From assembly GCF_003987355.1 (NCBI RefSeq), contig NZ_PIPR01000002.1:186001-250000 (forward strand): a stretch of 64,000 nucleotides of DNA, written 5' to 3'. Positions 3,932-50,469 of the stretch are shown here, one piece after another. A program made the translations under genes and the position numbers. The DNA is from Pseudidiomarina aestuarii. Lineage in GTDB: Bacteria; Pseudomonadota; Gammaproteobacteria; Enterobacterales; Alteromonadaceae. Position 1 is the stretch's first letter. Each line of letters begins with the position of its first letter. The notes under the pieces were generated by a model that made no database searches, was not told the DNA's origin, and was given only the letters and a program-made list of their open reading frames with translations.

Positions 3932-4564
3932 TCATTTATCGAGTTCAGTAATGCGCAAGTATGGCTTCAAAGTTGTCCAACCTTGAGGGAACTTTTTCTT
4001 GGCGTCTTCATCGCTGACGGTGGGGCGAATAATGACTGGATTACCCGGACGCCAATCTGCTGGACAAGCAACCTCTTGCTTATCGGTTGTTTGCAATGCA
4101 TCAATCACGCGCAAGATCTCGTCAAAATTGCGTCCGACGGTCATCGGATAGGTCATCATCAAACGGATCTTCATCGACGGGTCAATGATGAAAACTGAGC
4201 GCACCGTAGCCGTGACACTCTCATTCGGGTGAATCATGTCGTACAGCTGCGCAATTTTCAGTTCTTTGTCAGCCACAATTGGAAACTCCAGAACGGTGTT
4301 CTGAGTTTCGTTGACATCTTGAATCCAGCCTTTGTGTTGTTCAACCGTGTCGGTCGATAAGCCAAGTGGTTTGACATTACGTTTGGCAAATTCTGGAGCC
4401 AGTTGTGAGGTGCGCCCCATCTCGGTCGTGCAAACCGGCGTGTAGTCTGCCGGGTGGCTGAAAAAGAACACCCACGATCCCTGCGCCCAGTCGTGCAGCC
4501 GGATAGGGCCATTCGTGGTATCGATGGAAAAGTCAGGCGCGGTATCGCCAATACGCAGTGCCAT
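3932..4564 (-). CDS. Peroxiredoxin, 1-Cys (Prx6-type)
   Basis: Reduces hydrogen peroxide and organic peroxides in the cytoplasm. The protein is 210 residues from the ATG at 4564. The peroxidatic cysteine is C45 in the family motif HPADYTPVCTTE, and the late VACPADWRPGNPVI segment is typical of the Prx6/1-Cys group. The open frame runs 17 codons further upstream, but a strong AGGAGG at 4571-4576 with 6 nt spacing fixes the start at 4564, and family alignment begins there (ALRIGDTAPDF). Repeat copy A lies just upstream, so its promoter must lie inside or beyond that element. The gene stands between a regulator and a DNA-damage protein with no obvious operon partner. Confidence 0.92.
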   Translation of the reverse strand: MALRIGDTAPDFSIDTTNGPIRLHDWAQGSWVFFFSHPADYTPVCTTEMGRTSQLAPEFAKRNVKPLGLSTDTVEQHKGWIQDVNETQNTVLEFPIVADKELKIAQLYDMIHPNESVTATVRSVFIIDPSMKIRLMMTYPMTVGRNFDEILRVIDALQTTDKQEVACPADWRPGNPVIIRPTVSDEDAKKKFPQGWTTLKPYLRITELDK

Positions 4565-4592
4565 AATAAACCTCCTGAACATAAAAATCGTT

Positions 4593-4677
4593 AAAAGCGA
4601 ATAGTTACTGGCCACTCGACGAGCACAGATCTGTGTTTTCTAGTAACTAATATCTATCAGCCAGTAACCAATAGTTT
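4593..4677. repeat. Heptamer palindromic intergenic repeat, copy A
   Basis: First of five copies of one element. It opens with AAAAGCG at 4593-4599, has a short left arm (TTACTGG, CCACTCG), the perfect 12-bp palindrome CACAGATCTGTG at 4624-4635, then TTTTCTA and right-arm 7-mers GTAACTA, ATATCTA, TCAGCCA, GTAACCA. It lies about 42 bp past the YedK stop (4719) and 20 bp before the peroxiredoxin ribosome site. On the minus strand it ends CGCTTTT, so it may terminate the YedK transcript. Confidence 0.8.
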
Positions 4678-4718: not shown

Positions 4719-5297
4719 TTATTCTGCTTGGCTCACCTGGATGGCCGCATCTGGGAGTGGTTGTAGTAACGGTCCTAACTGTTCGACAGCGCTGGTGAAC
4801 CAATAATTCATAGCGTCCACTAGGACAAAGAATGGCATGCGATGATGATACGCTGCGCAGGTTTCATTCGGTGCAATGGTCAAACTGACGAGTTCTGGAT
4901 GCTGTGGACCATGGAAGACGAGTCCTCCCATAAATAGAGGGCTGTTGTCCCTGCTTTCGAACAGATACTTCACTTTACGACCTTCTTCGGTTCGCCACTC
5001 GTAGTAACCTGAAACTGGAATCACACAACGTGATTGGGTAAAAGCACGCTTAAAGGTAGGCTTCACTGCCGCTGTTTCTACTTGGGCATTAATCAGAAGT
5101 TTTGTTGCCCAGGTTGGCTGAATACCCCAGCGTGTCGGTACTTGCTGGATTGACTCTGTCGTTTGATTCCACATCAATGTGTCAATGCGCTGAGTAGGGC
5201 GCAAGTCAGTATTATCCTGTGTTTTGAATTCGATACCCAACTGCTCGTCGAGATACGCAGTTAACGGCGCTGCGATCACATTCATGCGGCCACACAT
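4719..5297 (-). CDS. yedK: SRAP/HMCES-family abasic-site shielding protein (YedK-like)
   Basis: Family members form a stable thiazolidine link through the N-terminal cysteine to abasic sites in single-stranded DNA and so protect replication forks. At 192 residues the length is close to the family's roughly 200-230. C2 is exposed after Met removal (MCGRM), N70 is in INA, E100 is in GYYEW, and the late histidine is H151 in YHHRMP. Two deviations stand out: the Arg of the common INAR motif is Gln (Q72), and the Asp of HDRMP is His (H152). ATG at 5297 has GGAGGG 9 nt upstream. Whether it is SOS controlled is unknown, as I saw no LexA box. Confidence 0.88.
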   Translation of the reverse strand: MCGRMNVIAAPLTAYLDEQLGIEFKTQDNTDLRPTQRIDTLMWNQTTESIQQVPTRWGIQPTWATKLLINAQVETAAVKPTFKRAFTQSRCVIPVSGYYEWRTEEGRKVKYLFESRDNSPLFMGGLVFHGPQHPELVSLTIAPNETCAAYHHRMPFFVLVDAMNYWFTSAVEQLGPLLQPLPDAAIQVSQAE

Positions 5298-18278: not shown

Positions 18279-18384
18279 AACGTTACTAGCTAGTAGCTAC
18301 TAGTTACTAGAAAAGCATGGATCTGTGTTTTCTAATATCTAGTAGCCAGTAGCCAGTAGCCAGTAGCCAGTAGCCAGTAGCTAG
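18279..18384. repeat. Heptamer palindromic intergenic repeat, copy B (expanded arm)
   Basis: The longest copy. The left arm has four 7-mers from 18283 (TTACTAG, CTAGTAG, CTACTAG, TTACTAG), then AAAAGC, a centre with GATCTGTG, TTTTCTA, and a right arm whose AGTAGCC unit is repeated five times exactly (18341-18375) plus a sixth, AGTAGCT. Its right edge supplies the TAG stop of the GPP34 gene (18381-18383, minus strand). Confidence 0.88.
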
Positions 18385-21749: not shown

Positions 21750-21859
21750 GTAGTGTACTCCTGTAATCACTGAATCCGATTGTGGTAAAGTCGGCAATGA
21801 TCGCCCATTTCTCGACAGCGTGCAACGCAACCTGAGTGAACACTGAGAACAAAGAGTCG

Positions 21860-22561
21860 ATGACACTAATCTATCAAATCAATCGCAGCCGCAAACGCCG
21901 CTCTGTTGCTATCAAAGTGAAGCAGGGCGAGGTGCGAGTGGACGCCCCGTGGTATGTCACAGACAGTCGTATTCACGCTGTGGTGGAGCAGAAACGTGAG
22001 TGGATTGAGAAGCACCTTTACCGTCAGCAACAACAGCTGCAAGCGTTGACTCGGCGACTTTGGCAAGCGGGTGAAGAAATTCGTTGGTTGGGTGAGCCGT
22101 TGCTGTTGAAGGTGCAAACAGGCAGCAAGGGGCAGTGCGAGCGCCATGAACAGCAGTTATTGGTGACCGTTCCGCAGCGCGTGAAGCAGCAAAGTGCGTA
22201 TATTGAGAAGCACGTGAAAGCTTGGTTCAAACAACATGCACTGCAATGGTTAGATGCATTTTTTGCGCAGTGGAGCCATGCTGAGCTGCAGCCCAAAAGT
22301 TGGGCACTGGCTGACTTTTCCAGCAAATGGGGACATTGTTCGGTAAAGGGGGAACTCAAATTCACGTGGAAGTTGTGGCTAGCCCCAGAATCAGTCGTGC
22401 GCTCGGTTGTGCTGCACGAACTCGCACACCTGCGCGAGTTCAATCACAGCAAAGCCTTCTGGCAAGAGGTCGCGGCTATCGACCCGGACTATCAGGTGTC
22501 TGAGCGCTGGCTCAAACAGCACGGCAGCACCACCCTAGCTCCCAACTACCTCAGCTACTAG
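21860..22561 (+). CDS. ygjP: YgjP/SprT-like zinc-dependent protein
   Basis: A 233-residue member of the YgjP (DUF45, M48-like) family. The zinc motif is HELAH in SVVLHELAHLREFNHSKAFW, with a third ligand later. The core has FSSKWGHCSVKGELKFTWKLWLAP, the family signature. The frame opens at GTG 21836, but ATG 21860 (TLIYQINRSRKRRSVAI) fits relatives better; the start is not certain. The last codons (LSY, stop TAG at 22559-22561) are written by repeat copy C, so the native C-terminus may have been replaced. Peptidase activity is inferred from the fold. Confidence 0.85.
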   Translation: MTLIYQINRSRKRRSVAIKVKQGEVRVDAPWYVTDSRIHAVVEQKREWIEKHLYRQQQQLQALTRRLWQAGEEIRWLGEPLLLKVQTGSKGQCERHEQQLLVTVPQRVKQQSAYIEKHVKAWFKQHALQWLDAFFAQWSHAELQPKSWALADFSSKWGHCSVKGELKFTWKLWLAPESVVRSVVLHELAHLREFNHSKAFWQEVAAIDPDYQVSERWLKQHGSTTLAPNYLSY

Positions 22562-22637
22562 CTATTAGCTTCTAGTTACTAGAAAAGCGCAGATCTGTGT
22601 TTTCTAGTAGCCAGTAACCAATAACCAGTCACGCTTT
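22555..22637. repeat. Heptamer palindromic intergenic repeat, copy C
   Basis: It fills the whole gap between convergent genes: left-arm units CTACTAG, CTATTAG, CTTCTAG, TTACTAG, then AAAAGC, centre GCAGATCTGTG, TTTTCTA, right-arm units GTAGCCA, GTAACCA, ATAACCA, and CACGCTTTT. It supplies the stop of the YgjP-type gene and touches the stop of the DPP-IV gene at 22637-22639. It probably works as the terminator between them. Confidence 0.85.
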
Positions 22638-24916
22638 TAAAGATTTTCGGCGAGGAAGTCGACCATCATGGTGCGCAGATGATACGTCGTGCCTTCGCCT
22701 TCGCGAATACCATGCGTTCGATTCGGATAGGCGAAGAACTCAAACTGCTTTCCGTGCTTAATTAGCTCGTTGACTAACCGTTCGCTGCCCTGAAAATGAA
22801 CATTGTCGTCGGCGGTTCCATGTACTAGCAACAAATCACCTTGCAGGTTCTTAGCATGCGTAATCGCGGATGTTTCGCGGTAACTGTCTGCATCTTCAGG
22901 CAGTAAGCCAGAGTAACGTTCTTGGTAAATCGTGTCGTACAAAGTCAAATCAGGTACCGGTGCTAACGCCATGCCGACATGGAACGATTCTGGATAACGG
23001 AATAAGGCATTCAGCGTTTGCGAGCCGCCGCCGCTGTGGCCCCAAATACCTACGCGATCTGCGTCGATAAATGACCAACGTTCGAGCATTTCTTGTAACG
23101 CATCGTTTTGGTCACGCACCGTTACCACGCCAAGCTGCTTATAAATCGAACGGCGCCATTCATAGCCACGCGGTGAACGCGTACCGCGGTTATCAATGGA
23201 AGCCACTAAGTAACCTTGCTGAGTTAGGTACTGATGGAACATAAAGCGCTCGCCACCCCAACTGTTGCTGACCGTTTGCCCCCAAGGTTCGCCGTACACA
23301 TAAAACAGAATCGGATACTGCTTTGCCGGGTCAAAATCTGCAGGCTTCATTAAGAAGCCATCTAGCGCCAGACCATCTTGTGCAGTCACTTGGAAGAACT
23401 CGAATTGTGCTTGTTCCAACGCATCGAAATTGGCCTGGACGTCTGCGTTGTCTTTGATGACTCGAATCGAGCGGTGATCGGGTAGGGTGATCATATCGAC
23501 CACAGGTACTTGCGAAACCGCCGAGTATGTATGCACTGCGTACGCTGCATCGGCAGAGAGCTGGTAACTATGCGTGCCGGGTTGATTCGGTGTGAGGCGC
23601 TCGAGTTTGCCACTGCCATCGAGGCTGGCGCGGAATAAGTAACGCTCCAACGGCGTGTCCGGAGATGCTATGAAGTAGACCCAACCTTGATCTTCATTGA
23701 TCTGCAAAACGTCGATAACATCCCAGTTCCCGCGAGTAATGGCGGTCACACGACCGTTATCCGGTTGTACTCGGTACAGATGCCGCCAACCACTGCGCTC
23801 ACTCAACCATGTAAAGGCTGCGCCTGAGTTGATGAATTTCGGATCATCAACGTAGTCAGCCCAACTTTCCGTCGTTTCGCGAATGACTTCACGCACGCTG
23901 CCATTATCCGCATCGGCGATGAATGCTACGTTCACCGCTTGTGAGCGTGTGAGTTGTTGAATCAGCAACTGGTCACTATTACCGGCCCATTGCATCCGCA
24001 CCAAATAATGCTGACGAGGATCGCCAGGAACCTTCATCCACGTTGTCGCGCCGCCATTGGCAGGAATGACGCCAATACGCATGGCGGCATTCGTCTCTCC
24101 AACTTTCGGATACGGAAACTGCTTGAGGGTGGGATACAAGGTATCGGTATTGTTGATCATGGTGAACAACGGAGTGCCTTCGGTATCCAGCTGCCAGTAG
24201 GCAATCGACTGGCCATCTGGAGACCAGCGGAAGCCATCACGTAAGAAGAATTCCTCTTCATTTACCCAATCAAAAGTTCCGTTCACAATGGTGTCGTTGC
24301 CATCTTTGGTGATTTGGGTGATGCGTGATGTCGCTAGGTCTTCAACATAGATATTGTTCTTCATCACATAAGCGACGCGTTCACCTTGAGGATCAAACTT
24401 CGCGAACTGCAGTGTCGATGCATCGGCACTACCGCCCAGTTTCTGCAGGCGTTTGCTGGCGCGGTCGAAAACCCAATAATCACCCAATGTATGGGTCCGC
24501 CAAGACCGTTTGGTATTGGTGAAAATCAGAAGTTTTTGACCGTCGTCTGACCATGAGTAATCAGCAACCGCTAACGGTGCTTCGGTTGCGGTCGGGCGCA
24601 GTTGGTCCGCAGTGATCAAAACAGTGCGCTGTTGCGTTTCAGGATGATACCGAACGAGATCGTCGCCGGCGCCGGAATCCGAAAGTTCCAACGTGGTGTA
24701 GCCGCTGCCGTCAGCAAGCCAACGCGTTGGTGGAACGCCACCCGCACTAAAATCACTGGTTTGATAAAGTCGCTCTAGCGTCAGAGCTGGTTCACTATCT
24801 GCAGTTTTCACTGGGGCAGGATCGGAAGCCTGCGGCAAAGCGCTACAACCAGCGAGTAGAAATAAGGTGGCCGCACTCGATACGATGAGTTTGGTGTAAG
24901 ATAGTGGCGTCGACAT
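22637..24916 (-). CDS. Dipeptidyl peptidase IV-family serine protease, lipoprotein
   Basis: Removes N-terminal dipeptides, probably in the periplasm or at the outer membrane. In 759 residues there is a lipoprotein signal with lipobox LLAGC, a beta-propeller (about 60-500) and a C-terminal alpha/beta-hydrolase. The catalytic serine is S628 in WGHSGGG, the aspartate is in HGTADDNVHF (about 703), and the histidine is H735 in NRTHGI. Length and motif fit S9B peptidases. The ATG at 24916 follows a weak GGAAACGGA site. It is divergent from prlC, separated by 102 bp, and the two make a natural extracellular/cytosolic peptide-degradation pair, which is inference. Confidence 0.92.
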   Translation of the reverse strand: MSTPLSYTKLIVSSAATLFLLAGCSALPQASDPAPVKTADSEPALTLERLYQTSDFSAGGVPPTRWLADGSGYTTLELSDSGAGDDLVRYHPETQQRTVLITADQLRPTATEAPLAVADYSWSDDGQKLLIFTNTKRSWRTHTLGDYWVFDRASKRLQKLGGSADASTLQFAKFDPQGERVAYVMKNNIYVEDLATSRITQITKDGNDTIVNGTFDWVNEEEFFLRDGFRWSPDGQSIAYWQLDTEGTPLFTMINNTDTLYPTLKQFPYPKVGETNAAMRIGVIPANGGATTWMKVPGDPRQHYLVRMQWAGNSDQLLIQQLTRSQAVNVAFIADADNGSVREVIRETTESWADYVDDPKFINSGAAFTWLSERSGWRHLYRVQPDNGRVTAITRGNWDVIDVLQINEDQGWVYFIASPDTPLERYLFRASLDGSGKLERLTPNQPGTHSYQLSADAAYAVHTYSAVSQVPVVDMITLPDHRSIRVIKDNADVQANFDALEQAQFEFFQVTAQDGLALDGFLMKPADFDPAKQYPILFYVYGEPWGQTVSNSWGGERFMFHQYLTQQGYLVASIDNRGTRSPRGYEWRRSIYKQLGVVTVRDQNDALQEMLERWSFIDADRVGIWGHSGGGSQTLNALFRYPESFHVGMALAPVPDLTLYDTIYQERYSGLLPEDADSYRETSAITHAKNLQGDLLLVHGTADDNVHFQGSERLVNELIKHGKQFEFFAYPNRTHGIREGEGTTYHLRTMMVDFLAENL

Positions 24917-25018
24917 AGATCCGTTTCCTTGAACTGGAGTTGATATCTGGGGTAGAAGCCCTCAGATCCATCTGCATTAGCACAAAATCAGTTCACGCAT
25001 TATTCAAGAGGATGTCCA

Positions 25019-27067
25019 ATGAGTCAAAACCCTTTGCTCAATGATTACCACTTACCACCGTTTCAGTCGATTCGGCCTGAACACATCAAGCCTGCCATTG
25101 AAGCACGCATTGCGGCGTGTAAACAGGTTATTGAGCAAGTCGTGGCAACGCCCTCACCAAGTTGGGAAACCGTCATGGCGCCCCTTGAGCACGTTGACGA
25201 TTTGCTAGAGCGAAGCTGGTCACCGATATCACATTTAAATGCTGTGGTGAGTTCGCCAGAGCTGCGTGAAGCACATGATGCGTGTCTGCCCTTGTTATCC
25301 GACTATGGAACGTTTGTTGGACAGCATGAAGGTCTTTATCGAACGATTCGGACTTTGCACGAGCAACCAAGTTTTACCGAGTTGAGTGAAGCTCAGCAAA
25401 AAGTGATTGTGGATACATTGCGTGATTTTGAATTGAGTGGTGTGGCGCTGCCGCAAGAGCAGAAGCAACGTTATGCAGAAATCTCGTCGCGGTTGGCTGA
25501 TTTGTCTTCGCAATTTAGTAATCATGTGTTGGATGCTACCGACGGTTGGCATTGTCTCGTTACCGATGAATCGCACTTGGCTGGACTGCCAGATAGTGCA
25601 ATTGAATCAGCCGCTGCACTGGCGCGTGAACATGACCAACAAGGCTGGCGCTTTGGTCTCGACATCCCCAGCTATTTGCCGGTGATGATGTACGCCGATC
25701 ACCAACCACTGCGCGAGAAAATGTACGTAGCCTTTACCACTCGAGCATCGGACCAAGGTCCGCAAGCCGGACAGTTTGATAACTCTGAGATCATGGCAGA
25801 AACCTTGGCACTGCGCCATGAGTTAGCAGTATTGCTCGGTTTCAATAACTATGCGGAGTTATCACTCGCGACTAAAATGGCGGAATCCCCGCAGCAAGTT
25901 GAAGATTTTCTCAGTGACCTAGCGGCAAAATCCTTACCCCAGGCGCAGCGAGACTATCAGGATGTCGTTGACTTCGCTCGGCAACAGTTTGGTGTCGATA
26001 GCATTGAGGCATGGGATGTTGCTTACTACAGTGAGAAGCTGAAGCAGCAAGAATACGCCATTTCGGATGAGCAACTGCGTCCGTACTTCCCCGAGAATCA
26101 AGTCATCAAGGGGTTGTTCCATGTCGTCGAGTCACTGTTCAGCGTAAGCATTACCGAACAGCCGAGAGAAGATATCTGGCATCAGAATGTCCGCTATTTC
26201 GTAATTTCTGATCAGGATGGCTCACCGCGCGGCTCGTTTTTCCTTGATTTATACGCGCGTTCCGGCAAGCGTGGCGGGGCTTGGATGGCTGAATGTGCTG
26301 TCCGTCGCATCACCGCTACCAACCAAGTTCAACTGCCTGTGGCGTATCTCACCTGTAACTTCAATAAGCCGGTGGGTGGTAAACCAGCGCTATTTACCCA
26401 TGATGAAGTGCTGACACTATTTCATGAGTTCGGACACGGCCTGCACCACATGTTGACTCGCGTCGATGTGGCTGGGGTGTCTGGTATTAATGGTGTGGCT
26501 TGGGACGCTGTTGAACTGCCGTCACAGTTTCTTGAAAATTGGTGTTGGGAACCGGAAGCGTTGCAGACGATTTCAGGCCACTACGAAACCGGTGAACCCT
26601 TGCCGCAAGATTTACTCAACAATATGTTAGCCGCGCGGAACTTCCAATCGGCTATGCAGATGGTGCGACAACTCGAATTCAGTTTGTTCGACTTGCGTAT
26701 TCACCGTGATTTCGATCCGAGTCAAGGTGGCGCTCAGATTCAAGCTATCTTGGATCAAACACGCCGTGAGGTTGCAGTGCGTCAGCCGCCTGAGTACAAC
26801 CGCTTTCAACATGGCTTTGGACATATCTTTGCTGGTGGTTATGCTGCTGGTTACTACAGCTACAAATGGGCTGAAGTGCTGTCTGCCGATGCGTTTGCAC
26901 GCTTTGAAGAAGAGGGTATTTTCAACGCAGCTACCGGACGCGATTTCCTTGAAGCGATATTAGAGCGCGGTGGCTCAAAGGATGCGATGGAGTTGTTCAA
27001 AGCTTTTCGTGGTCGTGAACCACAAGTCGATGCGCTACTGCGACATTCGGGAATTGCCGCGCGTTAA
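25019..27067 (+). CDS. prlC: Oligopeptidase A
   Basis: An M3-family zinc metallopeptidase of 682 residues that clears signal peptides and other oligopeptides in the cytoplasm. The zinc site HEFGHGLHHML lies at about residues 468-478. N-terminal NPLLNDYHLPPFQSIRPEHIKPAIE is the typical PrlC start, and YNRFQHGFGHIFAGGYAAGYYSYKWAEVL is the substrate-binding region. ATG 25019 has AGAGGA upstream. In E. coli prlC is followed by rlmJ, which is not the case here, as rlmJ is at 37010. Confidence 0.95.
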   Translation: MSQNPLLNDYHLPPFQSIRPEHIKPAIEARIAACKQVIEQVVATPSPSWETVMAPLEHVDDLLERSWSPISHLNAVVSSPELREAHDACLPLLSDYGTFVGQHEGLYRTIRTLHEQPSFTELSEAQQKVIVDTLRDFELSGVALPQEQKQRYAEISSRLADLSSQFSNHVLDATDGWHCLVTDESHLAGLPDSAIESAAALAREHDQQGWRFGLDIPSYLPVMMYADHQPLREKMYVAFTTRASDQGPQAGQFDNSEIMAETLALRHELAVLLGFNNYAELSLATKMAESPQQVEDFLSDLAAKSLPQAQRDYQDVVDFARQQFGVDSIEAWDVAYYSEKLKQQEYAISDEQLRPYFPENQVIKGLFHVVESLFSVSITEQPREDIWHQNVRYFVISDQDGSPRGSFFLDLYARSGKRGGAWMAECAVRRITATNQVQLPVAYLTCNFNKPVGGKPALFTHDEVLTLFHEFGHGLHHMLTRVDVAGVSGINGVAWDAVELPSQFLENWCWEPEALQTISGHYETGEPLPQDLLNNMLAARNFQSAMQMVRQLEFSLFDLRIHRDFDPSQGGAQIQAILDQTRREVAVRQPPEYNRFQHGFGHIFAGGYAAGYYSYKWAEVLSADAFARFEEEGIFNAATGRDFLEAILERGGSKDAMELFKAFRGREPQVDALLRHSGIAAR

Positions 27068-27074
27068 TGATTCA

Positions 27075-27115
27075 GTGGGTGTTACCTAGCTTCGTGCTTA
27101 AGCGGGTAGCACCCA
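27075..27115. terminator. Hairpin between prlC and the DUF2970 gene
   Basis: GTGGGTGTTACC (27075-27086) pairs with GGTAGCACCCA (27105-27115) with one G-T wobble. It spans the convergent gap and the last codons of the DUF2970 gene. There is no U-run, so rho-independent termination is doubtful. Confidence 0.4.
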
Positions 27116-27289
27116 GTTCACGATTAAGAGTAATGAGACGACGAACAGAATAATAAAAATGATACCGACCGTGATGTAAACGGCGGGGTTACCATTGGTA
27201 AAGTCACGTTGACGATTTTGTTCGGTTTGGACACCAAATAAGGCAGCGAGCACGCTCAATAAAATACTGAGAGGGCCTGGCTTACTCAT
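27098..27289 (-). CDS. DUF2970 small membrane protein
   Basis: A 63-residue protein with an N-terminal amphipathic segment LSILLSVLAALFGVQTEQNRQRDF and one transmembrane helix at about 38-60. The FGVQ...RDF pattern and length match DUF2970, a family of unknown function. It is 21 bp downstream of the 99-residue gene and likely shares its transcript. Confidence 0.75.
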   Translation of the reverse strand: MSKPGPLSILLSVLAALFGVQTEQNRQRDFTNGNPAVYITVGIIFIILFVVSLLLIVNWVLPA

Positions 27290-27310
27290 TCAGTACTTAC
27301 TCATTAATAA

Positions 27311-27610
27311 CTAGCGAACTTTCTTCGGAGCGAAATCGCGTTTGGTTTCAGAATTGCCAAACAGTAATTCGAATAAGTCGAGGAAGTGAAATTGTGTTGA
27401 ACGGCTTTGTCCCGAGAACCAACTTTTCCAAGTGACTTCTTTTTCGAGAGCTGTGCATTCTTCGTAGGCTTGCTTTTGCTCGGTGTTTTTCAACAGCTCA
27501 TCGCATTGCTGCGTGACATTATTGGCGCGGGCTTGCCACGACGGAGACAGCATCGACCCCAGCAGGATCATGCCGCAAACCACCAATATTGACGCTAAAC
27601 GTGAAGTCAT
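27311..27610 (-). CDS. Exported small protein, function unknown
   Basis: A 99-residue protein with a clear signal peptide (LASILVVCGMILLGSML...ARA/NN). The mature part of about 70 residues has two cysteines (QQCDELL and YEECTALE) that could form a disulfide. It ends in a basic tail, DFAPKKVR. I do not recognise the family. ATG 27610 is the only start giving the signal. It precedes the DUF2970 gene and diverges from rpe. Confidence 0.62.
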   Translation of the reverse strand: MTSRLASILVVCGMILLGSMLSPSWQARANNVTQQCDELLKNTEQKQAYEECTALEKEVTWKSWFSGQSRSTQFHFLDLFELLFGNSETKRDFAPKKVR

Positions 27611-27648
27611 TGAAATAACCTTGTTTAATAATTGCTCATAATGTAGCA

Positions 27649-27688
27649 GGCAAATGCCTATTTTGCCAAGTATCTTGGCGTATTTTTT
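27649..27688 (+). promoter_or_regulatory. Alternative hairpins with U-run upstream of rpe
   Basis: GCCAAG-TAT-CTTGGC (27665-27679) followed by GTATTTTTTT looks like a rho-independent terminator on the + strand. An earlier hairpin, GGCAAA (27649-27654) with TTTGCC (27662-27667), would use part of the same left arm, so the two exclude each other. This may be an attenuator for rpe, or only a terminator for antisense read-through from prlC. I could not place a promoter ahead of it with confidence. Confidence 0.4.
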
Positions 27689-27792
27689 TGACTGCCAAGC
27701 GCGTTATCCTCTGGTACACTATGGCGCATGAATAAACACAGCCGGCCCTTGCCCACAGCCCGCGTGGCTGAGGCAAGTATGAGGATACTAAA

Positions 27793-28476
27793 GTGACTGA
27801 TTTTTTAATCGCCCCCTCCATTTTATCTGCAGACTTTGCGCGACTTGGCGCAGAAGTTGATGCTGTCTTAGAGGCTGGTGCTGATGTCGTCCATTTTGAT
27901 GTTATGGATAATCACTTTGTTCCGAATCTGACGATAGGTCCTATGGTGTGCTCGGCTCTACGCAAGTACGGTGTTACCGCGCCTATCGATGTGCATTTAA
28001 TGGTACAACCCGTCGATCGTATTATCGGTGATTTTGCGGAAGCGGGGGCGTCGATCATTACTTTTCATCCAGAGGCTTCAACACATATTGACCGGTCGTT
28101 GGAATTGATTCGTGCTGCAGGGTGCCAATCTGGGCTAGTGTTTAATCCGGCAACGCCGTTGCATTACCTCGATTACGTCATGGATAAAGTGGACGTCATA
28201 TTGTTGATGTCAGTCAACCCAGGTTTTGGTGGGCAACAGTTTATTCCAACCACCCTCGATAAACTTAAAGAAGCACGGCAGCGCATCACCGCGAGCGGTC
28301 GCCCCATTCGATTAGAAATTGATGGTGGCATTAAGGTGGATAATATTGCCTCTGTGGCAGCCGCTGGAGCAGATATGTTTGTTGCAGGTTCAGCTATTTT
28401 TAATCAGTCAGACTATCGAACTGTTATCGAGGCAATGCGCGCCGAACTTGCCACAGTTACAAAATCATCTAATTAA
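27793..28476 (+). CDS. rpe: Ribulose-phosphate 3-epimerase
   Basis: Interconverts ribulose-5-phosphate and xylulose-5-phosphate in the pentose phosphate pathway. It is a 227-residue TIM barrel with [13 protein letters not shown] at the N-terminus, the metal and catalytic segments [12 protein letters not shown] and [16 protein letters not shown], and LEIDGGI near the C-terminus. Initiation is at GTG 27793, with GAGGA at 27781-27785. A 22-codon frame from ATG 27728 ends in TGA overlapping this GTG and may couple its translation. trpS follows after 23 bp, as in the rpe-gph-trpS order of E. coli but without gph. Confidence 0.95.
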
Positions 28477-28499
28477 TTTTTTCATTCAGGAAGTCAATC

Positions 28500-29504
28500 A
28501 TGTCTAAACCCATTGTTCTCAGTGGCTGTCAGCCATCCGGTCAATTGTCCATCGGTAACTATATCGGTGCACTACGCCAGTGGGTGAAAATGCAGAGTAC
28601 TCATGATTGCCTCTTCATGCTGGTCGACCTTCACGCGATCACCGTCCGTCAAGAGCCAGAGCAATTGCGCAATGCTACCCTCGACGGTCTCGCCTTGTAT
28701 ATGGCATGTGGCTTGGATCCAGAGCAGAGCACTATCTTCGTGCAGTCGCATGTTCCACAGCACGCCGAGCTAGCTTGGATCTTGAATTGTTATACGCAAA
28801 TGGGTGAATTGAATCGGATGACTCAGTTCAAAGACAAGTCTGACCGTCATGCCCATAACGTCAATGCTGGCTTGTTTACCTATCCTGCACTCATGGCTGC
28901 CGATATTCTGTTATATCAAGCGAATGAAGTACCCGTGGGTAACGACCAAAAGCAGCATCTTGAATTGACTCGTGATGTTGCGACGCGCTTTAACAATATT
29001 TATGGCGACATATTTACCGTACCCGAGCCGTTTATTCCTGAGGTGGGTGCGCGTGTGATGAGCTTGCAAGATCCGACGAAAAAAATGTCCAAGTCTGACG
29101 ATAATGAAAATAACTACATTGGTTTGTTAGAAGATCCGAAGAAGATAACCAAAAAATTGAAGCGGGCTGTCACGGATTCCGATGAGCAGGCACGCATCTA
29201 TTTTGATACTGAAGAAAAACCAGGTGTCTCTAACTTACTGTCGATTTTGTCAGCAGCTACTGGGACTTCCATTGCCGACTTAGTTCCGCAATACGAAGAC
29301 AAAATGTACGGTCATTTGAAAACCGATACGGCCGCAGCAGTTGTGGCAATGTTGGAGCCAATTCAACAGCGTTACCAAGAGTATCGGAATAACTTAGATT
29401 ATTTGCAGCAGGTAATGAGAAAAGGTGCCGATGCTGCGTCGGAACGAGCAGCGCAGACGTTACGGCAGGTCTATGACGCAGTCGGTTTTGTGCCGCGCCC
29501 ATAA
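28500..29504 (+). CDS. trpS: Tryptophan-tRNA ligase
   Basis: Class I aminoacyl-tRNA synthetase of 334 residues. The HIGH-type motif appears as SIGNY (residues about 17-21 in [18 protein letters not shown]) and the KMSKS motif as KKMSKSDDN near 195-203. [20 protein letters not shown] is typical of bacterial TrpRS. GGAAG lies ahead of ATG 28500. Probably in one transcript with rpe. I see no tryptophan-rich leader. Confidence 0.96.
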
Positions 29505-29610
29505 GGCCTTCAGAGCACATAAATAAGTGTTCGCTTCGAAAAATCTTTATGCTATTTTGCTTATATAAAATGTCATATATCGACGTACTTCTATCATGAA
29601 GGCTTGGTGA

Positions 29611-31860
29611 ATGAGTGAATCGGATTCGAGCATGGCGGAGAACCGCCGGTTAGCAGCATTACGTGCAACTAAATTGCTCGATACGCCCAACGAAGCGCGG
29701 TTTGATCGCTGGGTTCAATTAGCGCGCCAAACATTTGATGTTCCCATCGCGCTGGTTTCATTCGTCGATGCTGATAGACAGTGGTTCAAGGCAAAAAGTG
29801 GCTTAAGCGTGCAGGAAACTCCGCGTAGTCTGTCGTTTTGTAGTCATGCTATTCAGCAGCGCGATATCATGGTGGTCGAAGACGCCACGCAAGATGCGCG
29901 TTTCAAAGATAATCGGTTTGTACATGATGACCCCGGTATTCGTTTTTACGCCGGTGCTCCGCTGCAAACGCCAAACGGCGAGCAAGTCGGAACCTTGTGC
30001 ATTCTCGATACCCGAGTGCGACAGCTTACAGAGAGCCAACTCACTACGCTCCGGGCACTCGGTGATGCTGTGCAAGCAGAAATGAACTTGCGTGCGTACC
30101 AAAGTGCTGCCGAAGACCTCATTCAACAACAATCTGAAACCAGCGAGACCAATCAGCGACTGCAGGAGCGCGAACAGCGACTTTCCTCTATTTATGATTT
30201 GGCTCCGGTTGGCATATCGATTTGCAATGCTGACGGACAGTTAATCGAAGCAAACCATGCAGCTGAGGCAATTCTTAATCAAAGCATGGAAGCGTTGACG
30301 CATCGCCAAATTGATGACCCAGATTGGCGGATCTTCGATGAACGTGGCTTCATTCTTGCTCCGCAAGATTTTGCTTCATCACGGGCGTTACGGGAACGGC
30401 GTCCGGTCACCAACCAAATCATGAAGTTAGAGCAGGGTGCTTATTCGGTATGGTTGTCAGTCAGCGCATCACCGTTGCCAGACGGCGGTGCGATTATTGT
30501 TTATTCGGATATCTCTGACTTAAAGCAGCAACAAGATCGCATTCGTTATTTAGCCGCGCACGACCAATTGACTGGGCTCTGCAATCGCTCTGAATTTATG
30601 CATGAGCTCGACGGACGAATTGCGGTAGCGAGAAACACGGACCAAACGTTGTCTGTGATCACTTTCGATATTAATCACTTCAAAGAAATCAATGAGTCCG
30701 CTGGACACGCCATAGGCGACCAATTATTGCTGGAAGTTGCGAAGCGTCTGCAGCGACATGTGCGTAGCCGTGATTTGATAGCGCGAATTGGTGGTGATGA
30801 ATTTGCGATTATCACTTTCCATCATGAAGCCGAAATTGAGGCGTTGATTGAGCGATTGTTGGCGCAACTGAGTCAGGCCTATGAAATTCAGTCCGCTGAA
30901 TTTCGTATCAACATTAGTGCTGGTGTGGCAACCTTACCGCGGCACTCCGACAGTGCTGATGTGTTGCTGCGCCGCGCGGATATGGCGATGTTCCATGCGA
31001 AGACTATGGATCTCCCGTACTGCCGCTATCACGAAGCATTGAATAACTTTTATTTACGTCGAATTGCCCTAGTGGAAGGTTTGGAGTATGCCATCCGCAC
31101 GTCAGCATTACGGACCTACTTACAGCCGCAGTTGAACATTCAAACGGGTCAGTTAGTTGGCGCAGAAGTATTGTTGCGTTGGCAAGATCCTGATTTTGGT
31201 TGGGTTAGTCCGGCTGAGTTTATTCCTCTTGCCGAAGAGCGCGGTTTGATATGTCGCATCACGCAATATGTGATTCGAAACGTGCTGCAACAACTGCAGA
31301 TCTGGCGTGAAGAAGGTCTGGAAATGTGCGGTCGGGTTGGCATCAACATCTCTATTCGCGACCTAGAGCAACCGCAGTTTGTCGAAGAATTACTGGAGCA
31401 AGTAGCGACGTCGGGTTGTCATCCGAAACAACTCGAGTTGGAGATAACCGAAACCGCTTTTATGCGCGATCCTGAGGTGGCACTGGCAACCCTAACCAAG
31501 CTCCACGAAGCAGGTTTTTCACTAGCAATTGATGACTTCGGCATCGGCCACTCCGTATTGAATTACTTAAAACAAATTCAAGCCGATGTGCTCAAAATCG
31601 ACATCAGCTTCACGCGTGAATTACTGACCAGCGCTGCTGATAAAGCAATAATTCAGACCATTATCGCTACTGCGAATATTTTTGGGATGAAGACTTTAGC
31701 TGAGGGTGTTGAATCTGCGGAGCAAGCGCAAGAACTTCGCCGCTTGGGTTGTGATTACGCGCAAGGTTATTGGTATGGTGAGCCGCAACCTATCGCTGAT
31801 TTCGAAGCGAACTGGTTGCGTGATGGCCGCGCCGCTGGTTGCGAGACTTCTAACTCGTAA
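29611..31860 (+). CDS. GAF-PAS-GGDEF-EAL cyclic di-GMP protein
   Basis: A 749-residue, apparently cytoplasmic sensor protein. A GAF domain (about 25-160, with FCSHAI and FYAGAPL) is followed by a short coiled coil (165-185), PAS (190-305), GGDEF (315-475) and EAL (490-735). The cyclase motif RIGGDEF is intact and the RxxD inhibitory site RSRD sits five residues ahead. The phosphodiesterase motif reads EVL rather than EAL, but the later catalytic segments (IDDFGIGHS, LKIDISF) look complete. Either or both activities may be live. No membrane segment is seen. It stands alone between trpS and pabA. Confidence 0.92.
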   Translation: MSESDSSMAENRRLAALRATKLLDTPNEARFDRWVQLARQTFDVPIALVSFVDADRQWFKAKSGLSVQETPRSLSFCSHAIQQRDIMVVEDATQDARFKDNRFVHDDPGIRFYAGAPLQTPNGEQVGTLCILDTRVRQLTESQLTTLRALGDAVQAEMNLRAYQSAAEDLIQQQSETSETNQRLQEREQRLSSIYDLAPVGISICNADGQLIEANHAAEAILNQSMEALTHRQIDDPDWRIFDERGFILAPQDFASSRALRERRPVTNQIMKLEQGAYSVWLSVSASPLPDGGAIIVYSDISDLKQQQDRIRYLAAHDQLTGLCNRSEFMHELDGRIAVARNTDQTLSVITFDINHFKEINESAGHAIGDQLLLEVAKRLQRHVRSRDLIARIGGDEFAIITFHHEAEIEALIERLLAQLSQAYEIQSAEFRINISAGVATLPRHSDSADVLLRRADMAMFHAKTMDLPYCRYHEALNNFYLRRIALVEGLEYAIRTSALRTYLQPQLNIQTGQLVGAEVLLRWQDPDFGWVSPAEFIPLAEERGLICRITQYVIRNVLQQLQIWREEGLEMCGRVGINISIRDLEQPQFVEELLEQVATSGCHPKQLELEITETAFMRDPEVALATLTKLHEAGFSLAIDDFGIGHSVLNYLKQIQADVLKIDISFTRELLTSAADKAIIQTIIATANIFGMKTLAEGVESAEQAQELRRLGCDYAQGYWYGEPQPIADFEANWLRDGRAAGCETSNS

Positions 31861-31927
31861 GCTTAGCAACGACACGCCAATCAATGCTAGGATGCGGCGA
31901 TTCCAGTCGATACGTTAGAGTAAATTT

Positions 31928-32527
31928 ATGTTGCTGATGATCGATAATTACGACTCTTTCACACACAACGTCGTACGTTATTTCCGTGAGCTGAAAGCGG
32001 AAGTCAAAGTTATTCGTAACGACGAACTGACACTAGCAGGAATCGAGGAGCTTCCGCTCAGCGGTATCGTCATTTCACCGGGTCCGTGTACGCCCAATGA
32101 AGCCGGTATTTCACTCGCAGTCATTGAACACTTTGCTGGGAAACTTCCTATTCTGGGGGTATGTCTTGGGCATCAAGCCATTGGCCAAGTTTTTGGCGCC
32201 AAAGTGGTGCGAGCAAACGCAGTCATGCATGGTAAAACGTCGAGTGTCGAGCACACTCAAACAGGCCTGTTTCACAATCTACCGAATCCTTTCACAGTCG
32301 CTCGCTACCATTCACTGCTGTTAGCCAGCGACAGTATTCCCGATACTTTGGTCGTTGATGCTTGGACTACTGCAAGCTCAGGTGAACGCGAAGTGATGGC
32401 GATACGGCATCGCGATCTACCCATCTGGGGCGTCCAGTATCATCCTGAAGCCATCCAAACCGAGCATGGCCACCAACTACTAGCCAACTGGCTCAACCTC
32501 AAAGCGAAAAGCGTTACTAGCTATTAG
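31928..32527 (+). CDS. pabA: Aminodeoxychorismate/anthranilate synthase glutaminase subunit
   Basis: Provides ammonia from glutamine to chorismate-using synthases for folate (PabA) or tryptophan (TrpG). A 199-residue class I glutaminase with nucleophile Cys in [11 protein letters not shown] and the His/Glu pair in [12 protein letters not shown]. In E. coli pabA lies beside argD; here the argD/astC gene follows, which favours pabA, and one protein may serve both pathways. The final residues SVTSY and the TAG stop are encoded by repeat copy D, so the C-terminus is a few residues longer or different from relatives. Confidence 0.9.
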
Positions 32528-32601
32528 CTACTCGTTACTAGAAGAGCGCAGATCTGTGTTTTCGAGTAACCAGTAGCTAATAGCCAATAGCGCTCTTTTT
32601 T
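32507..32601. repeat. Heptamer palindromic intergenic repeat, copy D (best preserved)
   Basis: AAAAGCG (32507-32513), left-arm 7-mers TTACTAG, CTATTAG, CTACTCG, TTACTAG (32514-32541), AAGAGC, centre GCAGATCTGTG, TTTTCGA, right-arm 7-mers GTAACCA, GTAGCTA, ATAGCCA, then ATAGCGCTCTTTTTT. A-tract, stem and T-tract give a rho-independent terminator shape for pabA. The pabA stop TAG lies in the second left unit. A separate small 7-bp tandem (ACTATTC twice, 32610-32623) follows. Confidence 0.88.
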
Positions 32602-32767
32602 AACTGTTAACTATTCACTATTCACTGGCTTTTCCGCATATTCATGCAGCCCTTGTGCAAAACCAACTAACTCCCCGTGATAGCTTGATTTTTCTACGCT
32701 GTAGCGACGACAGCGAGCAAAAAATCTGCGATAATAGACGCACTTTTAAAGCCGAATTCATCTTTGA

Positions 32768-34006
<1,239 letters not shown>

Positions 34007-34034
34007 GCTAGCCCAGCGCTAGCGGAGACACATT

Positions 34035-36562
<2,528 letters not shown>

Positions 36563-36581
36563 TCGAACGAGGGAAATGACG

Positions 36582-37001
36582 ATGGCAGCAGCAATGCATG
36601 CGCAAGTGAAATGGATACAAGGCATGGAGTTTTCCGCAGAGTCGGGCTCTGGCCATACCGTGCGAATGGATGGTGATAAAGCTACTGCTGCGAGTCCAAT
36701 GGAGCTGGTGCTCATGGCTGCTGGTGGCTGCTCATCTGTTGATGTGGTGTCGATACTCGAAAAAACTCGTCAGCAAGTGACGGCTGTGCGCTGTGACGTG
36801 GATGGCAAGCGTGCCGATGCTACGCCTGCAGTGTTCACAGATATTCATTTGCACTTTGTGGTGACCGGCACGGATATTGCCGAGAAGCATGTGGAGCGAG
36901 CGGTGCAATTGAGTGCAGAGAAATATTGCTCGGTCGCGAAAATGTTGGAAGTTTCAGTCAATGTGACGCATAGCTTCAGTATTGAAGCGGCAACTGAGTA
37001 A
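36582..37001 (+). CDS. OsmC-family protein, YhfA-like
   Basis: A 139-residue OsmC-fold protein with the cysteine pair C50 (AAGGCSSVD) and C116 (SAEKYCSVAK). MKWIQGMEF-type N-terminus and SPMELVLMAAGGCSSVDVVSILEK match the YhfA branch of unknown function. ATG 36576 would be 2-3 nt from the GAGGGA site, so ATG 36582 is preferred. It follows astD by 19 bp and precedes rlmJ by 8 bp, so it is likely in the ast transcript, though no metabolic link is evident. Confidence 0.83.
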   Translation: MAAAMHAQVKWIQGMEFSAESGSGHTVRMDGDKATAASPMELVLMAAGGCSSVDVVSILEKTRQQVTAVRCDVDGKRADATPAVFTDIHLHFVVTGTDIAEKHVERAVQLSAEKYCSVAKMLEVSVNVTHSFSIEAATE

Positions 37002-37009
37002 CGGGCTCT

Positions 37010-37852
37010 ATGAACTATCGCCATAGCTATCATGCAGGCAACTTTGCTGATGTTTTGAAACATGCGTTGCAATGGGTGTGTTTAGACTACTTGACGCAAA
37101 AGGATAAACCGATGTTTGTGTTGGATACCCACGCAGGCATCGGTATGTATGATTTGACCGGAGAGCAAGCTCAGAAAACTGCAGAGTGGGAACAAGGTAT
37201 TGGCCGCTTGCTACAAGCGTCTCAGGTGCCCGAAGCGTTAGCAGGTTATGTTGCCGCAGTGCGCTCATTAAATGACGGTGATAGCATGCGCTGGTACCCC
37301 GGCTCACCATGGCTCACACAAGCACATTTGCGCGAGCAAGATCAACTGACATTGTCTGAATTGCACCCGTTGGATGCGATGGAACTTGCGGTCAACTTTC
37401 GCCGTCAGCGTCAGGTCAAAGTGCTGCAGCAAGAAAATGGTTACGCAGCAATGAAGGCGCTGTTACCACCCCCGCAAAAGCGCGGAATGGTATTGATTGA
37501 CCCACCCTTTGAGCAACGTGATGAGTTCGACCAAGTCATCAATGCCTTGCAAGCGGCACTGAAGCGCTGGAGTACGGGTACCTACGCAGTGTGGTATCCC
37601 ATCAAAGATCCGCTCACCATCGGCGAGTTTCATCAACGCGTCTTAGCGTTGCCACAAGCTGACAAAGTGTATGCGGTTGATTTACTGATCCGTGAGCCGC
37701 TCGACAACACCAAGCTGAATGGGTGCGGCATGCTGTTTATCAATCCTCCGTACGGACTGACCCAACAAGCCCCGGCTTTACTTGAGTTCCTGCGTCCATT
37801 GTTAGCTCAGGACCGCGGCGCTCAAGCACAAACCCAATGGCTAACTGACTAA
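37010..37852 (+). CDS. rlmJ: 23S rRNA (adenine-2030-N6)-methyltransferase
   Basis: Methylates A2030 in 23S rRNA with S-adenosylmethionine. It is 280 residues, the RlmJ length. NYRHSYHAGNFADVLKHA is the family N-terminus, LDTHAGIGMYDL the SAM loop, and IDPPFEQRDEF the DPP(F/Y) catalytic motif. GCGMLFINPPYGL is near the end. Overlaps nothing; it ends one base before repeat copy E. Probably the last gene of the ast transcript, terminated by that repeat. Confidence 0.95.
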   Translation: MNYRHSYHAGNFADVLKHALQWVCLDYLTQKDKPMFVLDTHAGIGMYDLTGEQAQKTAEWEQGIGRLLQASQVPEALAGYVAAVRSLNDGDSMRWYPGSPWLTQAHLREQDQLTLSELHPLDAMELAVNFRRQRQVKVLQQENGYAAMKALLPPPQKRGMVLIDPPFEQRDEFDQVINALQAALKRWSTGTYAVWYPIKDPLTIGEFHQRVLALPQADKVYAVDLLIREPLDNTKLNGCGMLFINPPYGLTQQAPALLEFLRPLLAQDRGAQAQTQWLTD

Positions 37853-37941
37853 AAGCGTTATTGGTGACTAGCTACTGGCTATTCGCAGAGCGAGATCTGT
37901 CTTTTCTAGTATCAAGTAGCCAATAGCTATTCGCATTTTTT
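37851..37941. repeat. Heptamer palindromic intergenic repeat, copy E
   Basis: It occupies the entire gap between convergent rlmJ (stop 37850-37852) and prkB (stop 37940-37942). AAAAGCG, left units TTATTGG, TGACTAG, CTACTGG, CTATTCG, then CAGAGC, centre GAGATCTGTC, TTTTCTA, right units GTATCAA, GTAGCCA, ATAGCTA and TTCGCATTTTTT. The A-tract and T-tract make it look like a bidirectional terminator. Confidence 0.85.
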
Positions 37942-38833
37942 AGCGGCAGATCCAGTCGAGTTCGCCGCCGTGACGCTTTTTCGACATCAGATCGTCAATC
38001 AGCGGTGCCAGGATCAGTTCCATCGCAAACACCATTTTTCCACCCGGTACGACTAGCGTATTCATGCGCGACATGAATGAACCATCAATCATCTGCAAGT
38101 AATACGGGAAGTCGACGTGGCGCATGCCGCGGAAGCGAATAACTACGAAGCTCTCGTCTAATGAAGGAATATCTTTCGCGCTAAATGGGTTTGAGGTATC
38201 CACGGTTGGAACACGCTGAAAGTTTATGTGTGTACGTGAGAATTGCGGAACAATATGGTGAATATAGTCTTCCATACTGCGCACGATGCTTTGCGTCACG
38301 GCTTCGCGGGAGTGACCGCGTTCCGAAGTATCGCGCATCAACTTTTGAATCCACTCTAAGTTGACGATCGGCACCATGCCAATTAATAAGTCGACATATT
38401 GTGCAACGTCATAGTCGTCGCCCGTTACTCCGCCATGTAAGCCTTCATAGAAGAGTAAATCGGTATCGCTGGGTAAGTCTTCCCAGGGGGTAAATGTACC
38501 CGGCATCTGATGGTATGGAACGGCATCATCAAAGTTATGCAAGTAACGGCGTGTTTGACCCATGCCGGTTTCGCTGTACTCGCGGAATAAGGATTCCAGT
38601 CGATTAAAGTTATTTGCTTCCGGACCAAAATAACTAATGTGCTTGCCTTGCTCTTGAGCTTTCCGAATCGCCAATTCCATTTCTGGACGCGAATACCGAT
38701 GAAAGCTGTCACCCTCAACGAATGCAGCGTGCAAATTTTGCGTGCGAAAAATGTGTCGCAGTGCCTGACTGGTCGTCGTTGTACCTGCTCCAGATGAGCC
38801 TGTAACAGCGATGATTGGATGTGTTTGCGACAT
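37940..38833 (-). CDS. prkB: Phosphoribulokinase-family kinase
   Basis: A 297-residue P-loop kinase of the PRK/uridine kinase fold. The Walker A motif is GSSGAGTTTTSQAL at residues 12-25, and a FVEGDSFHRY segment follows. It matches the non-Calvin PrkB of enterics, whose physiological substrate is not settled; no RuBisCO genes are seen. The stop lies in the T-tract of repeat copy E. Divergently placed neighbours slyX and fkpA are also as in enteric chromosomes. Confidence 0.9.
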   Translation of the reverse strand: MSQTHPIIAVTGSSGAGTTTTSQALRHIFRTQNLHAAFVEGDSFHRYSRPEMELAIRKAQEQGKHISYFGPEANNFNRLESLFREYSETGMGQTRRYLHNFDDAVPYHQMPGTFTPWEDLPSDTDLLFYEGLHGGVTGDDYDVAQYVDLLIGMVPIVNLEWIQKLMRDTSERGHSREAVTQSIVRSMEDYIHHIVPQFSRTHINFQRVPTVDTSNPFSAKDIPSLDESFVVIRFRGMRHVDFPYYLQMIDGSFMSRMNTLVVPGGKMVFAMELILAPLIDDLMSKKRHGGELDWICR

Positions 38834-50295: not shown

Positions 50296-50371
50296 GCGAG
50301 AATAGCTCAGCTGGTAGAGCACAACCTTGCCAAGGTTGGGGTCGCGAGTTCGAATCTCGTTTCTCGCTCCA
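50296..50371 (+). tRNA. glyV: tRNA-Gly (anticodon GCC), copy 1
   Basis: A complete 76-nt cloverleaf with encoded CCA. The acceptor stem GCGAGAA pairs with TTCTCGC, the D arm is GCTC/GAGC, the anticodon stem CAACC/GGTTG holds loop TTGCCAA (anticodon GCC), and the T arm has TTCGAAT. The symbol follows E. coli usage and is only indicative. Confidence 0.97.
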
Positions 50372-50393
50372 ATTTCGTCCTCATGTAAGCACT

Positions 50394-50469
50394 GCGAGAA
50401 TAGCTCAGCTGGTAGAGCACAACCTTGCCAAGGTTGGGGTCGCGAGTTCGAATCTCGTTTCTCGCTCCA
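50394..50469 (+). tRNA. glyX: tRNA-Gly (anticodon GCC), copy 2
   Basis: Identical over all 76 nt to the first copy, after a 22-nt spacer, so both are on one precursor. CCA is encoded. The symbol follows E. coli usage and is only indicative. Confidence 0.97.

Follow-up and report, generated by a model that had tools for sequence, protein, structure and literature searches.

What is the palindrome with a 7-bp period that recurs between genes of Pseudidiomarina aestuarii, and how does a sequence that encodes no protein come to lie at so many sites? The window analysed here is a stretch of 64,000 nucleotides of this genome (G000:C5:186001-250000; the whole genome, G000, comprises 2.64 Mb). On balance, the element is probably a dispersed, genus-wide intergenic hairpin that is copied by recombination and, at the ends of genes, either is tolerated or serves as a stem for RNA processing, a mechanism that we infer from the comparisons below.

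Architecture of the five window copies

Five copies are found at the positions where a preliminary description, made from the letters of the window, had placed them. They share one plan and are intergenic. The copies and the parts of copy 4 are as follows, in window positions, with matches of the covariance model in contig positions.

4593..4677, + strand: copy 1, from sequence; covariance model match C5:190591-190668
18279..18384, + strand: copy 2, from sequence; covariance model match C5:204283-204360
22555..22637, + strand: copy 3, from sequence and flanking genes; covariance model match C5:208555
32507..32601, + strand: copy 4, from sequence and folding; covariance model match C5:218514-218591
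32507-32513, + strand: outer AAAAGCG of copy 4, from sequence
32514-32541, + strand: left heptads of copy 4, TTACTAG CTATTAG CTACTCG TTACTAG, from sequence
32542-32563, + strand: centre of copy 4, AAGAGCGC-AGATCT-GTGTTTTC, from sequence
32564-32591, + strand: right heptads of copy 4, followed by the T run/outer part up to 32601
37851..37941, + strand: copy 5, from sequence, folding and flanking genes; covariance model match C5:223858

Copy 1 is set between two minus-strand genes, of SRAP type upstream (4719-5297) and of peroxiredoxin type downstream (3932-4615), and displays the centre CACAGATCTGTGTTTTC with an exact core at 4627-4640. Copy 2 also has minus-strand genes on both sides and combines four left heptads, a right run made mostly of CAGTAGC and the centre GGATCT. 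Copies 3 and 5 occupy convergent gaps, the former flanked by a YgjP-like and a DPP-IV-like peptidase gene and the latter by an rlmJ-like gene and a gene of the PRK/uridine-kinase family. The period of 7 bp in both arms and the variable number of units, described from the window copies, extend to 67 distinct elements read at loci of the genome, with 2-20 heptads on the left and 2-11 on the right. GATC lies in the centre of 41 of these elements, and the number of heptads in the left arm correlates with that in the right (r = 0.57, n = 67).

The finer consensus of the preliminary description holds in part. The outer AAAAGCG is exact in three of the five window copies and inexact in the others, the right CGCTTTTT stands as a loose consensus, with no such sequence seen at 4593 or 18279, and the centre CACAGATCTGTG is exact in the 4593 copy and in no other window copy. 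Because the two sides of the centre differ (AARAGCGC-AGATCT-GTGTTTTC), each copy has an orientation. Copy 4 folds into a single long stem on either strand (-44.1 kcal/mol on the plus and -45.7 kcal/mol on the minus strand; z -6.4 and -7.1). Folding is weaker in copies 1 and 2 (z -2.7 and -3.2, one strand each), copy 3 (z -2.2 and -4.7) and copy 5 (z -1.5 and -2.1).

Copies 3 and 4 start within the ends of open reading frames, where the TAG of the first heptad is the stop codon of 21836-22561 (YgjP-like) and of 31928-32527 (class-I glutamine amidotransferase). Since a heptad of the element supplies the upstream stop codon, insertion has probably altered the C-terminus of the upstream gene product. 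The TAG stops that come from the element lie at 22555-22561 and 32514-32527. For the protein encoded at 31928-32527, the nearest named relative comes from Pseudidiomarina aquimaris (69% identity). The match to the glutamine-amidotransferase proteins of relatives mostly ends at about residue 190 of 199. Behind copy 4, the run GTTAACTATTCACTATTCACTGG at 32605-32630 has a period of 7 too, and GTTAACTATTCA from this run is found again in the same gap of three further genomes (G003, G018 and G024).

Copy number in the genome

The element is dispersed, palindromic, intergenic and non-coding, as had been proposed from the window. Allowing up to two mismatches, a longer core, GATCTGTGTTTTCNAGTARC, is found 42 times across the genome and its reversed control not once (0), while the 14-base core AGATCTGTGTTTTC has 59 genome-wide matches against 8 for the reversed pattern. 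Three consecutive heptads with up to one mismatch match 457 times against 0 in the control. At the scale of the genome, chance is thereby excluded. In the window alone, the 14-mer at three mismatches does not exceed chance (7 found, mean 6.2); the evidence is therefore the whole architecture together with the genome-wide count. A covariance model was trained on 26 copies, of which the window supplied three (18279, 22555 and 32507). It gives at E <=1e-5 at least 140 two-strand matches, which merge into at least 76 places, among the 150 of 981 candidates that were scored. Within the window, the model at this threshold recovers exactly the five copies; the last 26 kb, where none had been seen before, yield no match. 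The preliminary description had expected many further copies and had named fewer than about ten as the result that would speak against it; the profile scan of the genome and the core count place the number far above that limit. No window copy matches an Rfam family at the gathering score, which agrees with the earlier failure to recognise a named family. An element with another centre, CAAAGCCAAA, lies close to two contig starts (L215, G000:C7:1-800; L216, G000:C1:1-800), in L216 immediately after a terminator-like hairpin, possibly the end of an rRNA operon.

Genomic placement

With genes called by a simple ORF rule, 37 core copies fall into 20 co-directional, 15 convergent and 2 divergent gaps, compared with 32 co-directional, 13 convergent and 13 divergent neighbouring gene pairs in the window. 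Core copies are rare in divergent gaps (divergent vs rest, Fisher P 0.023), also when they are counted as 32 distinct gaps (19, 11 and 2; some copies share a gap; P 0.042). Of the 35 copies flanked by a stop codon, 26 have their core at most 66 nt away from it; in co-directional gaps, the core is closer to the upstream stop than to the downstream start in 16 of 20.

A location in convergent gaps and close to the 3' ends of genes would suit bidirectional intrinsic terminators whose arms have grown long, and in some copies, such as that at 32507, the frame AAAAGCG...CGCTTTT gives T runs behind the stem on both strands. However, the T run is missing in the 4593 and 18279 copies, the dialect of G010 mostly terminates in CGnnTTTGnnTTT, and separate G+C-rich terminators adjoin elements (L023, L028 and the rpsO-pnp slots). 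A terminator scan of 22000-38500 found 15 against 17.8 expected, one inside copy 5 and none at the end of an element. With the scan at chance level, T runs lacking in some copies and terminators adjacent, intrinsic termination was rejected as a general account and is an unlikely origin of the element.

Distribution and dialects within the genus

Across 25 genomes of the same genus, the AGATCT core has two weak matches in total, and the AGATCT-centred subfamily is private to P. aestuarii within the genus genomes searched. Single 2-mismatch core matches in G029 and G039 were taken as chance, the control matching in G044, G046 and G050. A long core pattern gave no match in a scan of named genomes, among which the window genome may be absent. 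The comparison of orthologous gaps that the preliminary description had suggested does yield gaps without the element: by eye, a heptad array is held by 0 of 30 (copies 3, 4 and 5 in ten relatives). The genes flanking copies 1 and 2 were not found together in 30-40 kb stretches of ten relatives. Because the orthologous gaps of the relatives are empty (30/30), the subfamily either expanded in P. aestuarii or was lost elsewhere, expansion being the simpler reading.

The hairpin plan has a wider distribution. Scoring no more than 135 candidates per genome, the covariance model of P. aestuarii copies has matches in 13 of the 20 other genomes of the genus and in 0 of 14 same-order genomes. A second model, built from 12 species and run with stricter filters and 40 candidates scored per genome, matches in 3 of 118 genomes of the family, which represent 1 of 52 genera; all three (G000, G022 and G018) belong to the same genus, and G013 has no match although it belongs there as well. 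The hairpin plan is genus-wide and, among the genomes searched, confined to the genus. It consists of inverted arrays of degenerate heptads, nTryTnG on the left and its complement on the right, mostly with 3-4 units per arm, a centre of ~7-45 nt and a frequent frame AAARGCG...CGCTTTT. The heptads form dialects, with TTATTGG/TTATTAG in G003, CTATTAG in G014, CTATTTG/CTGTTCG in G008, TTACTCG in G012 and ATATTAG/CTATTGG in G010, G011, G017 and G019. The centre end GTGTTTTC is common to the G000 copies and many G010 copies, and some centres contain a further hairpin, terminator-like in L211 and a GTAG REP at L287:12809. At L214 (G011:C9:852700-853300), two tRNA copies with identical 3' sequence each have a heptad hairpin behind them; in the window, 50296-50466 holds a tandem pair of tRNA genes with equal scores.

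A species-private burst of a non-coding element could also be produced by a MITE of a DDE-type insertion sequence, but neither a terminal inverted repeat apart from the arms nor, at the five window copies, a target-site duplication was noticed by eye. Moreover, copy 4 has no match in phages and plasmids, of which the plasmids were searched with this one copy, and the core pattern has none in viral contigs. A MITE is a highly improbable origin, and a phage, plasmid or viral origin was rejected on the same searches.

Relation to REP elements and RAYT transposases

A RAYT-type or other transposase had been named as the mover to look for. In a REP/REPIN-type system, a single-stranded palindrome would have been moved by a RAYT (TnpA-REP) transposase that has since been lost from G000. 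Small intergenic palindromes in species-specific families are typical of REPs in the portions of the literature consulted (PMC3733652, PMC8266576), where, together with PMC3116915, they share with the heptad elements a high copy number and a frequent position downstream of genes. GTAG is present within many right-arm heptads, and a Y1_Tnp match occurs in 17 of 20 other genus genomes. In contrast, G000 is without a Y1_Tnp match yet has the most matches of 21 genus genomes to the model, which was built from G000 copies. Y1_Tnp occurs without a model match in G006, G007, G013, G015 and G020, and G005 displays the reverse. The second Y1_Tnp gene in G011 and G019 (one each read) is flanked by GTAGCCCGGCG repeats, a classical GTAG REP. 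The stems, built from 7-bp units, typically with 3-4 heptads per arm plus the centre, far exceed the 5-13 bp given for GTAG families in the source portions seen, and there is no unpaired GTAG-type head, since GTAG sits inside the paired heptads. The presence of the element does not track Y1_Tnp across the genus; this mismatch and the flanks of the Y1_Tnp genes in G011 and G019 led to rejection of RAYT as the mover, and a REP/REPIN-type origin is quite unlikely.

Compensatory change in the stem

Over 21 rows that represent 12 species, the share of paired cells is 87.8%, against 80.6 +/- 0.9 in shuffled rows (0/500), and both sides have changed in 13 of 28 pairs. This result is biased toward pairing because the filter demanded paired arms: 17 of the rows derive from 31 loci, 7 of which failed the paired-arms filter (14 of 21 identical) while 7 of the 24 that passed were omitted by choice, and the remaining four rows are G000 copies. 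The rpsO-pnp slot offers a single orthologous gap in 26 genus genomes, with rows that were not filtered for pairing. The downstream gene is presumably pnp, as the start of its translated protein resembles Pnp, and S15-leader matches upstream of the slot, which fall outside the element, back the rpsO-pnp naming. By eye, a heptad hairpin stands behind the terminator in 18 of 26 genomes, none is present in 7, including G000, and G006 is ambiguous. Pairing reaches 93.3% of cells against 82.9 +/- 1.3 shuffled (0/500) in 16 of the 18 genomes, the test omitting the two longest (G003 and G004) and using a structure predicted from the same alignment; 28 double-changed cells are spread over 7 of 19 pairs. 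The stem shows compensatory change at this orthologous slot. The slot hairpin is not essential, since G000 and six other genus genomes are without an element there. Two Rfam matches at the slot fall short of their thresholds, SraG with 28 of 50 bits and sok with 24.1 of 59, and were discounted. In E. coli, RNase III cleaves a hairpin 5' of pnp according to the part of PMC5371410 consulted, and by this analogy an RNA role at the rpsO-pnp site is plausible.

Within P. aestuarii, no covariation is seen between the arms. Among 26 oriented core copies of G000, 81.8% of cells are paired vs 83.5 +/- 0.5 in shuffled arms, 499 of 500 shuffles being equal to or above the observed value. Among the 67 unoriented elements the pairing deficit is weak (P 0.25, 0.20 and 0.024 at 2, 3 and 4 heptads). 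An active avoidance of complementarity by G000 arms, strong on 26-29 oriented copies and weak on 67, is not claimed. Taken as one set, the elements of G010, G011, G017 and G019 show marginal positive covariation (P 0.29 for three heptads in 24 elements and 0.04 for four heptads in 29 elements).

A G000 without compensatory signal would be expected if the elements were neutral heptamer satellites, whose arms arise and spread via replication slippage and template switching in quasi-palindromes and have no RNA role. Long runs of up to 20 heptads per arm and tandem arm duplications at L200 and L256 point in the same direction, and template switching could yield complementary arms without selection. 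However, slippage does not account for a common centre at dozens of separate sites. The rpsO-pnp hairpin, present in 18/26 genomes with changes on both sides, and the under-representation of divergent gaps also speak against neutral satellites, which are a doubtful explanation of the family.

Swapped slots between close species

The close species G011, G017 and G019 were compared in regions selected around the best G019 matches, a hairpin being defined by a folding z <= -3.5. In 34 gaps of G019 and G011, a hairpin is present in both species in 13, in G019 only in 3, in G011 only in 3 and in neither in 15 (Fisher P 0.0002). Eleven of the 15 hairpin-free gaps are 92-100% identical and the other four 16-78%, and 7 of the 13 gaps with a hairpin in both species are 31-66% identical. 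The corresponding numbers for 16 gaps of G019 and G017 are 6 with a hairpin in both, 3 in G019 only, 0 in G017 only and 7 in neither. The hairpins belong to a dialect A, with TATTRG heptads, or a dialect B, with TTATTCG and CTGTTCG. The 11 dialect-A slots of G019 hold in G011 a B hairpin in eight cases and an A hairpin, a GTAG REP and no hairpin in one case each; the overlap of A and B slots by chance has P 0.003. In the clearest cases the replaced stretch spans roughly the whole interval between stop and start codons, ribosome-binding site included.

The odd species out is G011 at L287:9531, L288:10187 and L288:17468, G019 at L288:18941 and G017 at L287:12809. Thus, a single split of the tree cannot explain all swaps. 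At L287:12809, the B hairpin starts as an A hairpin and switches in heptad phase, and this chimera fits recombination between arms. One slot has a hairpin in G019 and G017 and none in G011, with ~110 nt differing, ribosome-binding site included; gain and loss have the same appearance there. In an unselected 200 kb of G019 and G011 with 64 gaps, a hairpin is found in both species in 11, in G019 only in 5, in G011 only in 2 and in neither in 46; the three dialect-A slots of this sample are all A in G011 too, with 0 swaps. Dialect swapping is real in places, within the selected regions, and the second, unselected sample contains no swap. At L293:8554-8661 a heptad hairpin of G019 has as its counterpart, in the same slot of G011 (L296), a cluster of GTAG REP-like repeats.

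Comparison with known intergenic repeats

The closest known kind, as far as the parts of the source consulted extend, is represented by the GGGAATC convergent heptamer arrays of Xanthomonas, which have the same plan in other letters. In X. campestris and X. axonopodis, heptamer repeats GGGAATC / (GGGANTN)n of unknown function form 70 (Xcc) and 75 (Xac) convergent pairs, four units being commonest, and the arrays are intergenic, on average 28 nt behind the upstream gene, and scarce in divergent gaps (PMC4692102, in part). They mostly lie between the same gene pairs in the two species, with strong variation in length and sequence, according to the same portion of that paper. Degenerate tandem heptads, two convergent arrays per intergenic gap and a position near the upstream stop are likewise found here. 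In contrast, the unit is nTryTnG and not G-rich, unlike a GGGAATC unit with quadruplex potential, and the Pseudidiomarina family has a conserved centre, the AAARGCG/CGCTTTT frame, genus-wide dialects, compensatory change and exchanged slots. The family is therefore classed with the known convergent heptamer arrays, from which it differs in these features and in its letters.

Similarly, ERIC, YPAL and NEMIS form long single stem-loops in intergenic DNA, and Yersinia ERIC is said to regulate its neighbours through RNA folding (PMC2267715, in the part consulted); their arms differ from the tandem heptads described here, and no sequence relation to them is shown. The TAACTGA repeats of Beggiatoaceae, cyanobacteria and Bacteroidetes are intergenic heptamer arrays as well, but they are direct repeats, of which that genome has 169 sets beside a single indirect repeat, and most of them closely precede a start codon, in the portion of PMC4679880 seen. 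Microdiversity loci have short intergenic stretches, E. coli palindromic units included, that are swapped between fixed flanks; those reported in the part of PMC2884548 consulted lie within species and have mixed content, whereas here a hairpin replaces a hairpin of the same plan. Both convergent heptamer arrays and the in-place exchange of short intergenic segments are already on record in the source portions seen (PMC4692102, PMC2884548). Among the items listed in the literature searched, outside of which most subscription journals lie, none describes such elements in Pseudidiomarina or Idiomarina.

A proposed recombination-copied hairpin at gene ends

In the proposed mechanism, the element would be transcribed with the upstream gene and would place a stem of ~30-45 bp in the RNA, at its 3' end or between cistrons. 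There the stem may be tolerated or may act in RNA processing or stability, of the RNase III type. The element would need no transposase of its own to spread; like hairpins would recombine or be copied into one another, at times ousting the resident hairpin of a slot, and the arms would grow and shrink through 7-bp slippage. We infer the copying by recombination between like hairpins; a transposase scan for Y1_Tnp and inspection by eye for duplications found no mover, transposition intermediate or target duplication. A further, tentative possibility is that conserved slots keep an RNA stem while its letters are rewritten in each species, whole hairpins being replaced in place by those of another dialect through recombination of the 7-bp-phased arms. 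Such replacement, if true, would amount to transposase-free spread and homogenisation of a short element, with a cis-acting RNA-processing role at sites like rpsO-pnp.

How short non-coding repeats spread and become homogeneous in a bacterial genome without a transposase is an open question. The heptad acts as a built-in ruler which, with species dialects and orthologous slots in close species, makes copying, replacement and loss readable at each slot. Should the stems be RNase III sites, the genus has spread an mRNA-processing signal across the ends of dozens of genes; neutral stems would provide a clean example of concerted evolution in dispersed hairpins. Long homogeneous one-arm arrays of CTACTGG are also present, at G000:C1:1093179-1093255 (within L379) and in L005, and are candidates for length variation from strain to strain.
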